From positions 62,001 to 126,000 of the forward strand of contig SCUI01000011.1 of assembly GCA_004297225.1 (NCBI GenBank): 64,000 nt of DNA. The letters are read 5' to 3'. Of this stretch, positions 10,749-55,470 are shown in pieces. Each line of letters opens with the position of its first letter. Within the stretch, counting starts at the first letter, position 1. The position numbers and the translations under genes are program-made. The stretch comes from Lysobacteraceae bacterium. GTDB lineage: Bacteria > Pseudomonadota > Gammaproteobacteria > Xanthomonadales > Xanthomonadaceae. The notes beneath the pieces were generated by a model. That model was not told where the DNA came from. It did no database searches and saw nothing but the letters and a program-made list of their open reading frames with translations.

Positions 10749-10880
10749 TTTGACGCGGATCACGCGGATAAAAGCCGATTAGGGCGGATCAGGCGAAAAA
10801 TGGAACGGCGACAAGCCCATTCCCATCTTGTCCGTGTTGATCGGCTCTTATCCGCGTTATCCGCGTCCTGCGTTTGCCCT
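10749..10880. repeat. Gene-less GACGCGGAT inverted-repeat element
   Basis: About 132 bases between folE2 and pyrC form a long imperfect inverted repeat. The left arm runs TTTGACGCGGAT, CACGCGGATAAAAGCCGAT; the right arm in reverse reads GACGCGGATAACGCGGATAA, GAGCCGAT. The right end matches the right end of the larger element at 54161-54688 over about 40 bases with a single mismatch up to GCCCT, and the left ends are also alike. The interior (about 10800-10830) holds no gene. The last two bases overlap the pyrC stop. This looks like a non-autonomous copy of that element and may also act as a hairpin between the convergent genes. Confidence 0.75.
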
Positions 10881-19869: not shown

Positions 19870-19977
19870 ATGACCCACCTCGCCGCCACCGCCGTCGTCC
19901 AGCTGACCGCCGCCCGCATGGCCGCGGGCATGACCTCGCGCGCGCGCCGACCGGAATCCCGACGAACCGCTGGGTAA
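19870..19977 (+). CDS. Candidate arginine leader peptide (35 aa)
   Basis: A 35-codon frame from ATG 19870 to TAA 19975-19977, ending 80 bases before argF'. It carries Arg at residues 16, 24, 26, 27, 31 and 32; five of the last 12 codons are Arg, and three of these are CGA, a codon scarce in the neighbouring genes. It is followed by a terminator whose 5' arm can pair with the last codons. A weak TTGCGC-17-GACGAT promoter (19832-19860) would start transcription close to the ATG, so no Shine-Dalgarno is expected. Shorter in-frame starts are at 19918 and 19930. No protein function is implied. Confidence 0.55.
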
Positions 19978-20029
19978 TCCGGAGCAGTTGCTGCACCTCC
20001 GAAAAAGCCCGGCCTTCGCCGGGCTTTTT
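19951..20029 (+). promoter_or_regulatory. Attenuator of the arginine operon (intrinsic terminator with competing antiterminator)
   Basis: The terminator stem is GCCCGGC / GCCGGGC (20007-20013, 20018-20024) with loop CTTC and five T at 20025-20029. Its 5' arm can pair instead with GCTGGGT (19969-19975), all seven positions with two G-U pairs. GCTGGGT in turn overlaps the 3' arm of an upstream hairpin, CCGGAATCCC (19951-19960) with GGGTAATCCGG (19972-19982). This is the classic 1:2, 2:3, 3:4 arrangement of amino-acid attenuators. A ribosome stalled at Arg codons 24-27 would leave 19969-19975 free, so the antiterminator forms. One finishing at the TAA would cover it, so the terminator forms. Confidence 0.65.
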
Positions 20030-52145: not shown

Positions 52146-54149
52146 TCAACGCTCCAGCGACACCAGCACGGTGTCCGCCTCGACGAAGTCGCCGGCCGCG
52201 GCGTCCACGGACGCCACCACGCCGTCGCGCGGCGCCTTGAGCGCCAACTCCATCTTCATCGCCTCGATGACCAGCAATTCCTGCCCCGCCACGACGTTGT
52301 CTCCCTTGGCGGCCCGGACCACCACGACCCTGCCGGGCATTGGGGCCCGTACCTGGTCGTCCTGCGCCGCCGACGTGTCGCTGTCCCGACGATACACCTC
52401 CACCACGGCCAGTGGCAGGCGGCCCGCGGCCCCGTGCAACACCAGGTTGCCGGGGGTGGCGTCGACGCCCATGCGCAGCGCCTGTCCGTCGAATCGGCCG
52501 CCGAGTACACCCTCGGCCAGCCTCGCGCCGGAAACCGTGACCGGCGCCCCATCGACGGCCTGCAGGACGTAGTCGCCTGCGCTGCCGTGGGCGGTGACGA
52601 CGTGGCGTTCGCCCCGATGGATGAAGGCGACCCGGCGCTTGCCGCCGTGGCCCAGGCGCCAGCCGTCGGCGACCGCCCAGGGCGAACCGGGGTCGCCGGA
52701 ACGCACCGCGGATTCGCGCGCCTCGCGTTCCTGCAGCAGCAGGCGCGCCGTGGCCGCCGCGAGCAGCGCCTCGCGCGGGAGTGGCGCATCGGCGTCGGGC
52801 AGGAATTCCCCGAGGTGTCGATCGAGGTAGCCGGTGTCGATGCTGGCGCCGACGATCGCCGGGTGCCGCACCAGCCGCTCGAGGAAGGCGATGTTCGACT
52901 TCGGCCCGGCCACCGCGCACTGCGCCAGCGCCTCGCGCATCCGCGCCAGCGCCATCTCGCGCGTCGCGTCGTGGACGATGAGCTTGGCGATCATCGGGTC
53001 GTAGAAGATGCTGACCGTGTCGCCTTCGACCACGCCCGAGTCGATGCGCACGCGGTCGTTCGCGGTCGGCAGCCGCAGCCGCTCGAGCTTGCCGGAGCCC
53101 GGCAGGAAGCCGGCGGCCGGATCCTCTGCGTACAGCCGCACTTCGATCGCGTGGCCGACTTGCGGCACCACTTCCTGGGCCAGCGGCAGCGGCTCGCCGG
53201 TGGCGATGCGCAGCTGCCACTCGACCAGGTCCAGCCCGGTGGTCATTTCGGTCACCGGATGCTCGACCTGCAGCCGGGTGTTGATCTCCATGAAATAGAA
53301 CTCGCCCGAGGGCGCGACGATGAACTCCACCGTGCCGGCGTTGGCGTAGTCGATCGCGCGCGCCGCCTGCACCGCGGCGGCGCCCATCGCCGCGCGCAGT
53401 TCCGGGGTCAGGAACGGCGAAGGCGACTCCTCCAGCACCTTCTGGTAGCGGCGCTGCGCCGAGCACTCGCGCTCGTTGAGATGGATCGCGCCGCCGTGCG
53501 CGTCGCCGAAGACCTGGATTTCGATGTGCCGCGGCGACTGGATGTAGCGTTCCAGCAGCACGCGGTCCTTGCCGAAGGCGTTGGCGGCCTCGCGCTGGCA
53601 GCTTTCCAGCGCCGCGGCGAACTCTTCCGCGGCGCGGACGATGCGCATGCCCTTGCCGCCGCCGCCGTGCGCGGCCTTGATCATCAGCGGGTAGCCGATG
53701 CGGTCGGCTTCGCGCTGCAGCAGGGCAGGGGACTGGTCCTCGCCGGTGTAGCCCGGCACCACCGGCACGCCGGCCGCGGCCATCAGTTCCTTGGCGCCGG
53801 CCTTGCTGCCCATCCTGCGCATCGACGCGGCCTTCGGGCCGATGAACACGAGCCCCGCGGCTTCCACCGCATCGGCGAAGTCGGCGTTCTCCGAGAGGAA
53901 GCCGTAACCCGGGTGGATCGCCTGCGCACCGGAAGCCAGCGCCGCGGCGATGATCGCCTCGCCGCGCAGGTACGACTCCTGCGGCCGCGGCCCGCCGATC
54001 GCATGGCCCTCGTCGGCCAGGCGCACGTGCTGCGCATCCCGGTCCGCCTCCGAGAACACCGCCACCGTGGCGATCCCCAGCCGCCGGCAGGTCCGGATCA
54101 CCCGGCAGGCGATCTCACCGCGATTGGCAACCAGCACCTTCTTGAACAT
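52146..54149 (-). CDS. liuD: 3-Methylcrotonyl-CoA carboxylase, biotin-containing alpha subunit
   Basis: A 667-residue acyl-CoA carboxylase alpha chain. Biotin carboxylase (about 1-450) has FKKVLVANRGEIACRVIRT, the ATP-grasp loop KAAHGGGGKGMRIV, and FMEINTRLQVEHPVTE. The BT linker follows, and the C-terminal biotin-carrier domain has VIEAMKMELAL with the biotinyl lysine. The liu context identifies the substrate as 3-methylcrotonyl-CoA. Start ATG 54149 (MFKKVLVANRGE); ATG 54161 is 4 codons upstream, at the edge of the inserted repeat element. Confidence 0.94.
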   Translation of the reverse strand: MFKKVLVANRGEIACRVIRTCRRLGIATVAVFSEADRDAQHVRLADEGHAIGGPRPQESYLRGEAIIAAALASGAQAIHPGYGFLSENADFADAVEAAGLVFIGPKAASMRRMGSKAGAKELMAAAGVPVVPGYTGEDQSPALLQREADRIGYPLMIKAAHGGGGKGMRIVRAAEEFAAALESCQREAANAFGKDRVLLERYIQSPRHIEIQVFGDAHGGAIHLNERECSAQRRYQKVLEESPSPFLTPELRAAMGAAAVQAARAIDYANAGTVEFIVAPSGEFYFMEINTRLQVEHPVTEMTTGLDLVEWQLRIATGEPLPLAQEVVPQVGHAIEVRLYAEDPAAGFLPGSGKLERLRLPTANDRVRIDSGVVEGDTVSIFYDPMIAKLIVHDATREMALARMREALAQCAVAGPKSNIAFLERLVRHPAIVGASIDTGYLDRHLGEFLPDADAPLPREALLAAATARLLLQEREARESAVRSGDPGSPWAVADGWRLGHGGKRRVAFIHRGERHVVTAHGSAGDYVLQAVDGAPVTVSGARLAEGVLGGRFDGQALRMGVDATPGNLVLHGAAGRLPLAVVEVYRRDSDTSAAQDDQVRAPMPGRVVVVRAAKGDNVVAGQELLVIEAMKMELALKAPRDGVVASVDAAAGDFVEADTVLVSLER

Positions 54150-54160
54150 GTGGGTTCTCA

Positions 54161-54688
54161 TTTGACGCGGATTAACGCGGATAGAAGCGGATAAGAGCGG
54201 ATCAATCATCAGTTTGCAGAACGCGACGGCGTAGTTCCGCGCGAGGGCCGAAATTCAGCAGCAAGCCGACCTGGATGCCCGTGGCCCGCAGGTAGTTCAC
54301 CAACTGGACTTCATGGGGAATGGCCAGGTGTGAGACTGCCTTGACTTCGAGGATCAGCCTGCCTTCGACGAGCAAATCGGCGCGGAACTGGCCCACGACC
54401 TTGCTCCTGAAGCGAACTTCCAGCGGAACTTCCCTTGCAGCCTTGAGCCCGAGTTCCCCAAGTGCGATGACCATTGCATTGACATAGACGCTTTCGAGGA
54501 ATCCAGGCCCCAGTTCATTGTAGACAGCGTAAAACCCTCCAATAACCTGTTGCGTGAGCCTTCCTTCGATCAATCGACCTTCTTCGCCATCCATTGGCGC
54601 CTGTTCCATCGAGCCTCCTGCTCTTCAAATTTTCCCTATCCGCGTCTATCGGCTCTTATCCGCGTTATCCGCGTCCTGCGGTTGCCCT
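54161..54688. mobile_element. GxxExxY element flanked by GACGCGGAT repeats
   Basis: A 528-base unit between liuC and liuD. The left end reads TTTGACGCGGATTAACGCGG then ATAGAAGCGGAT; the right end in reverse is GGACGCGGATAACGCGGATA then AGAGCCGAT. The ends are thus imperfect inverted repeats built of ACGCGGAT units. The unit holds one gene (54202-54609). The right boundary touches the stop of liuC, the left is 12 bases from the liuD start. The gene-less copy at 10749-10880 shares both ends. No target-site duplication is obvious. Mobility is inferred from the two copies, not shown. Confidence 0.65.
54202..54609 (-). CDS. GxxExxY family protein (PD-(D/E)XK nuclease-like)
   Basis: A 135-residue protein. 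The naming motif is GFLESVY in YNELGPGFLESVYVNAM. The nuclease-like core is FRADLLVEGRLILEVKAV (Asp, then ExK), and LLLNFGPRAELRRRVL is the usual ending. A strong AGGAGG lies 4 bases upstream of ATG 54609. The TGA overlaps the left repeat. The biochemical role is not established; the fold suggests DNA or RNA cleavage. The gene is less GC-rich than its liu neighbours. Confidence 0.9.
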   Translation of the reverse strand: MEQAPMDGEEGRLIEGRLTQQVIGGFYAVYNELGPGFLESVYVNAMVIALGELGLKAAREVPLEVRFRSKVVGQFRADLLVEGRLILEVKAVSHLAIPHEVQLVNYLRATGIQVGLLLNFGPRAELRRRVLQTDD

Positions 54689-55470
54689 CAAAAGCACCAC
54701 TTCGGCTTGCGTTTCTCGAGGAAGGCGGCGATGCCTTCCTGGCCTTCGGGGGAGACGCGGAGGCGGGCGATGAGTTCGGCGTTGGCGGTGTCGATGGCCA
54801 CCGGGCCCGAGGCGCTGGCGACGTTGCGGACCAGCGCTTTCGCCGCCGCCGCCGCGATCGGGCCGGCCTTCAGCAGCAAGCCCACCTGGCGCTCGATCGC
54901 CTCGTCCAGCCCATCTTCGTCGACCACTTCGTGCAGCAACCCCATGCGCTGCGCCTGCGCCGCGTCGAAGATCTCCGCGCTGGCGAAGTAACGCCGTGCG
55001 TGGCGCGGACCGATCGCGTCGACCACGTACGGCGAGATCACCGCCGGCAGCAAACCCAGCTTGCTCTCGGTCAGCCCGAACTTCGCCGCAGGCACGCCGA
55101 TGGCGATGTCGCAGGCCGCCACCAGGCCGACGCCGCCGCCGAACGCGGCGCCATGCACGCGGGCGATGGTCGGCTTGGGCAGTTCGTCGAGCGTGCGCAG
55201 CAGTTTCGCCAGCGCCAACGCGTCCTGGCGATTGTCCAGTTCGCTCGCGGCGGCCATGCCGCGCATCCAGTTGAGGTCGGCACCGGCCGAGAACGACGCG
55301 CCTTCGCCTTCCAGCACCAGCACGCGCACGCTCGCGTCCAGCGCCAGGCCCGAGATCGCGTGGGTGAGGGCGGCGACCAGCGCGGCGTCGAAGGCGTTGT
55401 GGACCTCCGGCCGTTCCATCCGCAGGCGCGCGACGGCACCTTCCTTGCGCAGCGACAGGGGCTGTTTCAC
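54688..55470 (-). CDS. liuC: Methylglutaconyl-CoA hydratase (enoyl-CoA hydratase family)
   Basis: A 260-residue crotonase. The oxyanion loops are SAGADLNWMRGM and HGAAFGGGVGLVAACDIAI; the residues FGLTESKLGLLPAVISPYVV are those of the LiuC/GnyH group that hydrates 3-methylglutaconyl-CoA to HMG-CoA. The start is GTG 55470, divergent from the FTR1 gene. It lies upstream of liuD and liuE on the same strand but is separated from them by the GxxExxY element. Confidence 0.92.
   Translation of the reverse strand: MKQPLSLRKEGAVARLRMERPEVHNAFDAALVAALTHAISGLALDASVRVLVLEGEGASFSAGADLNWMRGMAAASELDNRQDALALAKLLRTLDELPKPTIARVHGAAFGGGVGLVAACDIAIGVPAAKFGLTESKLGLLPAVISPYVVDAIGPRHARRYFASAEIFDAAQAQRMGLLHEVVDEDGLDEAIERQVGLLLKAGPIAAAAAKALVRNVASASGPVAIDTANAELIARLRVSPEGQEGIAAFLEKRKPKWCF

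Follow-up and report, generated by a model that had tools for sequence, protein, structure and literature searches.

This report deals with a small gene of the GxxExxY family and with the inverted arrays of a short repeat that frame it in a 64,000-nucleotide (nt) stretch of the genome of a Lysobacteraceae bacterium (GenBank assembly GCA_004297225.1, contig SCUI01000011.1, positions 62,001 to 126,000 of the forward strand), called here the window. The gene lies between liuC and liuD, and a gene-less element with similar arms is found elsewhere in the window. The corresponding features, in window positions, are as follows.

54202..54609, minus strand: gene of a GxxExxY protein of the PD-(D/E)XK nuclease family, 135 amino acids (open reading frame, profile matches and structure model)
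Residue T19 of this protein: candidate specificity residue
54164..54203, plus strand: left (liuD-proximal) arm, four units toward the gene, namely G + ACGCGGAT, ACGCGGAT, AGCGGAT and AGCGGAT
54637..54675, minus strand: right (liuC-proximal) arm, toward the gene three ATCCGCGT units and one degenerate unit
10752..10788, plus strand: left arm of the gene-less element
10831..10867, minus strand: right arm of the gene-less element
52146..54149, minus strand: host neighbour, methylcrotonyl-CoA carboxylase alpha subunit (liuD), start codon read from the sequence
54688..55470, minus strand: host neighbour, enoyl-CoA hydratase (liuC)

A first-pass annotation of the window had described the gene as framed by inverted repeat arrays, and this was confirmed at the positions listed. 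In the left arm, the ACGCGGAT units start at 54165 and 54175 and the AGCGGAT units at 54186 and 54196. The placing of the stop codon inside the left repeat was nearly right, but the codon (54202-54204) shares only the last base of the innermost unit. The left arm begins 15 nt ahead of the likely liuD start codon, and the right arm ends 13 nt from the liuC stop. The identities of the neighbours, which also include an HMG-CoA lyase consistent with liuE, agree with the earlier statement that the unit splits liuC from liuD; we take these to be the proper names for the carboxylase, hydratase and lyase genes.

The encoded protein is a clear member of TIGR04256 (E=1.1e-35, 122.4 bits at a cut-off of 35) and of PF13366, PDDEXK_3 (E=5e-36). 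The motif G-x-x-E-x-x-Y corresponds to G36, E39 and Y42, of which the last two are each conserved in 203 of 204 aligned proteins. The active site is intact (D78, E88, K90), and this trio is kept in 192 of the 204. The predicted structure has a pLDDT (predicted local distance difference test) score of 94.4, and fold comparison of the model gave matches mostly to DNA nucleases, with the PD-(D/E)XK common fold. By its active site and modelled fold, the protein belongs to the PD-(D/E)XK superfamily, as had been suggested from the letters alone, and nuclease activity is predicted for it. According to open reading frames and profile matches, only GxxExxY is present between the arms, with no transposase of a known kind, and no defence-system model of PADLOC (2023 library) was matched. 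The gene is single copy in the source genome (2.52 Mb, 91% complete).

A gene-less copy with matching ends had been reported at 10749-10880; it was found again and placed at 10752-10867, its arms being 84% complementary. The window has 4 copies of the tandem pair ACGCGGAT-N1-2-ACGCGGAT, whereas none of 100 dinucleotide shuffles contained it. Throughout the source genome there are 27 occurrences of the pair in 18 places, including the gene, and none of the reversed pattern. Most of the 17 other places have, by eye, a second arm, which is often degenerate, and the outer sequences TTTTG-ACGCGG or CGCAGG-ACGCGG recur at dispersed places, again by eye. A strict unit pattern recognised 12 two-armed elements in 21 source-genome loci; eleven of them are 77-134 nt long and the gene-bearing one 508 nt. 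The search for gene remnants in gene-less elements gave none at E 1e-3 among 116 element loci, the genome G280 (G and L numbers denote genomes and loci of this analysis) having been looked at apart. The excess of perfect stems in element cores is weak (4.5 vs 4.0, 66 cores). In the window, Rfam matched only tRNA and Xoo5, both off the elements, and it matched none of the loci L325, L326, L356 and L503. The Xoo5 match, a Xanthomonadaceae small RNA, lies at 19908-19990 on the plus strand and scores 51.3, just above the gathering score of 50.

The gene with its arms is by no means confined to this genome. At least 582 GxxExxY relatives were found in one scan, and 161 loci were collected, comprising 80 of these relatives, named from many bacterial phyla and two archaea, and 81 from Gammaproteobacteria, including the source family. 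Seven loci with under 150 nt of flank were dropped, and 154 were scored. With the pattern CRYNRAK and at least two tandem units, arms were found on both sides in 112 of the 154, on one side in 24 and on neither in 18; most of the last group carry, by eye, other units (CACGGAA, CACGAAA, ACAGGAT) or outward arrays (L271, L308). When any last base was allowed (CRYNRAN), there were arms on both sides at 127 and on at least one side at 147 loci, while the same test shifted 2.5 kb away was positive at 1 of 45. A separate count on 70 loci gave both arms in 52 and at least one in 65 (2.5 kb control, 0/45; outward and reversed controls, 10/70 and 12/70). The distance control was relied on because the heptamer pattern, when reversed, remains almost the same. 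An additional test set of 70 loci comprised 67 with flanks, of which 50 had both arms and 64 at least one; a heptamer could be assigned to 62. Chance or base composition as the origin of the arrays was ruled out by the shuffles, the reversed-pattern controls (0-2 per genome and strand in the genome searches) and the distance control.

An arm most often consists of three units with starts 8-10 nt apart. The base before the outermost unit is C in 261 of 354 arms, inner units being mostly preceded by A or G, and the majority sequence outside the arms is TT(A/C)AC; therefore the element has a defined end. By eye, its start coincides with the stop codon of the gene upstream at L019, L335, L348, L357 and L453, and in the last case that stop seems to be provided by the first bases of the element. 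The two arms of a locus have the same consensus heptamer in 98 of 127 cases, against 11.4 expected and a maximum of 23 in 1000 permutations. Heptamer distance tracks protein distance (Mantel r=0.46, the largest of 2000 permuted values being 0.14, shared descent not corrected for). Paralogues within one genome have different heptamers in 31 of 34 pairs. The idea that paralogues avoid the same heptamer was not supported, the heptamer being shared in 3/34 pairs against 2.5 expected by random assignment. Since paralogues differ at the frequency of random assignment, the arms follow the gene and not the genome. Judged by such comparisons of sequence, the GxxExxY gene and its inward heptamer arms are one unit, widespread over Bacteria and present in some archaea.

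In the source family, the gene was found in 13 of 198 genomes, and each of the 13 copies is, by eye, flanked by arrays (those of L037 being degenerate); the units differ among the copies: ACGCGGAT, CACGGAT, CACAGAT, CGCAAAG and CGCCAAG. Besides ACGCGGAT, four heptamers were used in searches for dispersed arrays, the genomes predicted to hold them being named before each search from the unit at the gene. CACAGAT hits numbered 41 and 25 in the two predicted genomes and at most 5 in 26 others. For CGCAAAG, the predicted genomes gave 87 and 22 and the others 0-1, except G084 with 23, the gene of which is broken and flanked by CGCCAAG. CACGGAT was found 85 and 69 times, and 26 times in G168, where the arms of the gene mix CGCGGAT and CACGGAT; next came G164 with 15, and the source genome had 5. 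In 35 genomes of the class searched with CGCCAAG, the nine predicted ones gave 131, 102, 76, 65, 57, 51, 32, 8 and 2, and the remaining ones 0-4 in 25 genomes, but 42 in G280. In each of fifteen gene-less genomes, the CACAGAT, CGCAAAG and CACGGAT searches together gave no more than one hit. The ACGCGGAT pair is present in 6 of 13 gene-bearing family genomes (any heptamer) vs 16 of 185 gene-less ones (Fisher p=0.001). On these counts, the dispersed copies are carriers of the heptamer of the resident gene.

G280 contains truncated GxxExxY copies directly flanked by CGCCAAG arrays, L510 missing a further part of the gene. The copies share sequence beyond the arms, within a larger inverted-repeat unit, and so may have been moved by a larger element. 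At L507 and L510, the CGCCAAG copies have a common outer inverted repeat (beginning GGCTCGTC) and common flanks, as if on a larger short element. At L508 (G280:C2:730400-731150), an inverted element of the CGCAGAT/CGTTAAT type encloses a CGCCAAG element that contains a GxxExxY remnant, so that elements of two systems are nested.

A link between the protein and the repeat was found at residue 19, which covaries with position 5 of the heptamer. For the protein work, 134 loci with three or more units and no stop were aligned, and 6 loci with an internal stop were excluded. Among 34 phylogenetically independent pairs, of which 24 differ in the residue, Thr occurred with G 22 times and with A never. 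Because of this covariation, the GxxExxY protein very probably reads the repeats. Residue 105 and heptamer position 7 agreed at all 61 test loci to which the rule applied, an Ile at one further locus falling outside it; this result was set aside as evidence because it is essentially one deep clade split (3 independent pairs).

The history of the locus was followed in relatives. In nine genomes of the genus, the liuC-liuD site holds the gene in four and has only 34, 34 and 58 nt between the flanking matches in three; in the remaining two it is filled by a different sequence, 567 and 967 nt long, which is probably some other gene. Empty sites, the existence of which in relatives was to be checked, do occur, and the insertion is not fixed in the genus. 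In the tree, the proteins encoded at liuC-liuD in four genera group as a single clade (8/8, support 0.94, a broken copy of a fifth genus, G099, being left out), and their genes carry four heptamers: CGCGGAT, CACGGAT, CACAGAT and CGCCGAT. In the family f207, 16 loci linked by flank matches also have four heptamers, with a clade support of 0.24. The gene looks locus-stable because it is single copy here and its liuC-liuD copies make up one clade; apparently, the heptamer changes while the gene keeps its place. A second shared gene place was seen in L034 and L038 (G004, G126), with CGCAAAG and CGCGAAG/CGCCAAG units; the neighbours there are presumably carA and carB.

Places of elements are shared as well. 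When the 21 element places of the source genome, the gene site included, were compared with three relatives, at least 17 proved to be occupied at the orthologous position in one or more of them, and at least 11 in G054, the units of which are CACAGAT. The place of the gene-less element (10749) is occupied by an element with ACGCGGAT units in G168 and by one with CACAGAT units in G054, and there is no element in G151. Of 48 boundary pairs between species, 3 over 300 nt were dropped; among the remaining 45 pairs, left boundaries lie no more than 10 nt apart in 36 and right ones in 26, small intergenic gaps limiting the freedom. In another family, one slot with neighbours that we take to be ribF and ileS is held by two GxxExxY lineages, 41-46% identical and with different heptamers (L448 vs L436, L453, L470, L489). 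Shared places, unlike contents and the exchange of lineages in one slot indicate that slots persist and occupants change. In a sample of loci, a few slots are shared with other genera (presumably fabG and kdsA-eno places, and one with G004), and these were not counted as evidence. G168 cores are more alike than shuffled ones (10.6 vs 7.35), to which leftover unit fragments may contribute; in many gene-less G168 elements (e.g., L369, L374, L381), the core enclosed by the arms reads, by eye, AGTGG...CCACT.

Summarizing these data, sequence comparison shows a unit of gene and arms, matching dispersed copies, arms that follow the gene, covariation of residue 19 with position 5, and one locus with changing heptamers. 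In our opinion, with a probability of about 0.6, GxxExxY is a sequence-specific PD-(D/E)XK nuclease that reads CRYNRAN arrays beside its own gene and in dispersed gene-less pairs, and the population of these pairs turns over with its specificity. The recognition unit would be the heptamer CRYNRAN, about three per arm at a spacing of 8-10 nt, pointing inward on both sides of the gene. On the strength of the covariation, the protein may bind single units via its first helix, with several copies along each arm; it would then bring the two arms together and cut at or near the element. In existing slots, elements would be copied or replaced by host repair, which would keep the population on a heptamer readable by the resident protein, and a change of protein specificity would lead to turnover of the dispersed population.

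Several results weigh against this interpretation. The strict residue-19 rule was right at 40 and wrong at 16 loci of the test set, with 6 not covered, although about 85% had been expected, and Ser at this residue occurs equally with A and G. Two of the nine genomes predicted for CGCCAAG have only 8 and 2 hits. At least one ACGCGGAT pair is present in 16 of the 185 family genomes without a detected gene, mostly 1-6 and 13 in G007 (72% complete). These genomes run against the rule, but the refuting conditions named in the first-pass annotation, among them repeats independent of the gene, do not overturn the claim, the 15 gene-less genomes mentioned above having 0-1 hits each. Occupants of a shared slot have cores that resemble each other no more than those of different slots do (33 core pairs, both cores present in 30, p=0.64). 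By eye, no target-site duplication was seen at the sites compared, in genomes some 10-25% diverged.

The first-pass annotation had proposed an autonomous element and its non-autonomous derivative. The shared ends, the arms across phyla and the empty sites agree with this part of the claim, while a plain transposon is unsupported, the gene being single copy and apparently locus-stable and the dispersed elements occupying the same intergenic places in related species although their units and cores differ. A conventional mobile element, with the gene copy as the autonomous transposon, the short copies as internally deleted passengers and GxxExxY as the transposase, appears unlikely. It would account for the shared ends, the gene-less copies and the empty liuC-liuD sites, as well as for the slot held by two lineages, the likeness of the G168 cores and the truncated genes in G280, but the last may have ridden a larger element, and no target duplication was seen by eye. 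We know of no strand-transfer chemistry for a PD-(D/E)XK nuclease alone. The window protein matches 8 of 72,556 plasmid records and no phage record, and two family alignments found 2 viral contigs each; these searches did not support GxxExxY as a phage or plasmid gene either.

It is quite unlikely, too, that the arrays serve the host as binding sites on its chromosome (3'-end or chromosome-organisation sites), read by GxxExxY as a host protein and co-evolving with it gradually without mobility. The use of the same intergenic slots in related species, their similar left boundaries and the apparent stability of the gene are what such sites would show, and G168 is intermediate-like in holding both CGCGGAT (83 units) and CACGGAT (44), the loci having been chosen by those patterns. 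However, cores at shared slots are without detectable homology, slots are empty in sister genomes, and the gene is absent from most relatives and yet nearly always framed by its own arrays (147/154). Very improbable is an RNA hairpin, formed in transcripts by pairing of the inverted arms and processed by the protein. Long inverted arms do adjoin stop codons, and first spacers agree between arms above chance (0.39 vs 0.25), but 61% of 164 equal-length first spacers differ, while the heptamers mostly agree (98/127); the protein fold matches mostly DNA nucleases, and Rfam gave no match on the window elements or at the four loci named above.

The nuclease interpretation preferred here gives an uncharacterised family of at least 582 relatives a specific DNA sequence as its candidate substrate, together with a recognition code that can be tested, and it would account for a class of intergenic repeats without a description in the searchable literature. 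If true, control of a repeat population of the kind exerted by RAYT (REP-associated tyrosine transposase; REP, repetitive extragenic palindromic sequence) arose on two or more occasions from enzymes that are not related to each other, and the sequence-reading nucleases in question form a compact family (about 130 amino acids) with a specificity readable from flanking DNA. In the searchable literature, from which subscription papers and preprints were excluded, no function of the GxxExxY family and no report of the heptamer arrays was found, in agreement with the earlier remark that the protein had no known function and was not described as a transposable system; a published passage on the family makes no mention of arrays. 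The whole looks like an undescribed partnership in which a protein predicted to cut DNA is paired with a population of very small elements.

Among known systems, Holliday-junction resolvases and Cas4 are also PD-(D/E)XK proteins, but the GxxExxY protein had no sequence match among solved structures, and to our knowledge these enzymes have no flanking cognate arrays. Miniature inverted-repeat transposable elements with an autonomous DNA transposon are similar in having short inverted-end copies and one gene-bearing copy, and differ in that here there is no known-type transposase between the arms, no target duplication was seen and the gene is single copy.

REPtrons, that is, RAYT genes with their REPINs (REP doublets forming hairpins), are closer. 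One study describes orthologous RAYT genes flanked by different REP classes ('orthogroups', 'orthoswitch') and a high REP abundance that appeared dependent on the cognate RAYT (PMC3686654). TnpA-REP proteins are, according to another paper, HUH enzymes, and that of E. coli processes single-stranded REP (PMC8266576). As in a REPtron, a nuclease gene is framed here by inverted copies of a genome-dispersed repeat, dispersed inverted pairs are many and their abundance depends on the cognate gene, and a locus-stable gene is associated with changing repeat classes (four heptamers in the liuC-liuD clade of eight). In contrast, RAYT is an HUH/Y1 tyrosine nuclease and REP a palindrome with a conserved tetranucleotide, whereas in our case there is a PF13366 protein with a PD-(D/E)XK fold and non-palindromic tandem heptamers CRYNRAN. 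Because these two defining features, the HUH enzyme and the palindromic repeat, are absent, the system was not placed under RAYT-REPIN. There may be a second, independently evolved REPtron-like class over Bacteria and Archaea, in which a PD-(D/E)XK nuclease with a residue 19-position 5 code propagates and overwrites a genome-wide population of inverted heptamer arrays in conserved slots, and altered specificity would convert dozens of sites together; we give this wider proposal an even chance. By analogy, the system would be nearest to RAYT-REPIN in its behaviour, though built from an unrelated nuclease and unrelated repeats.
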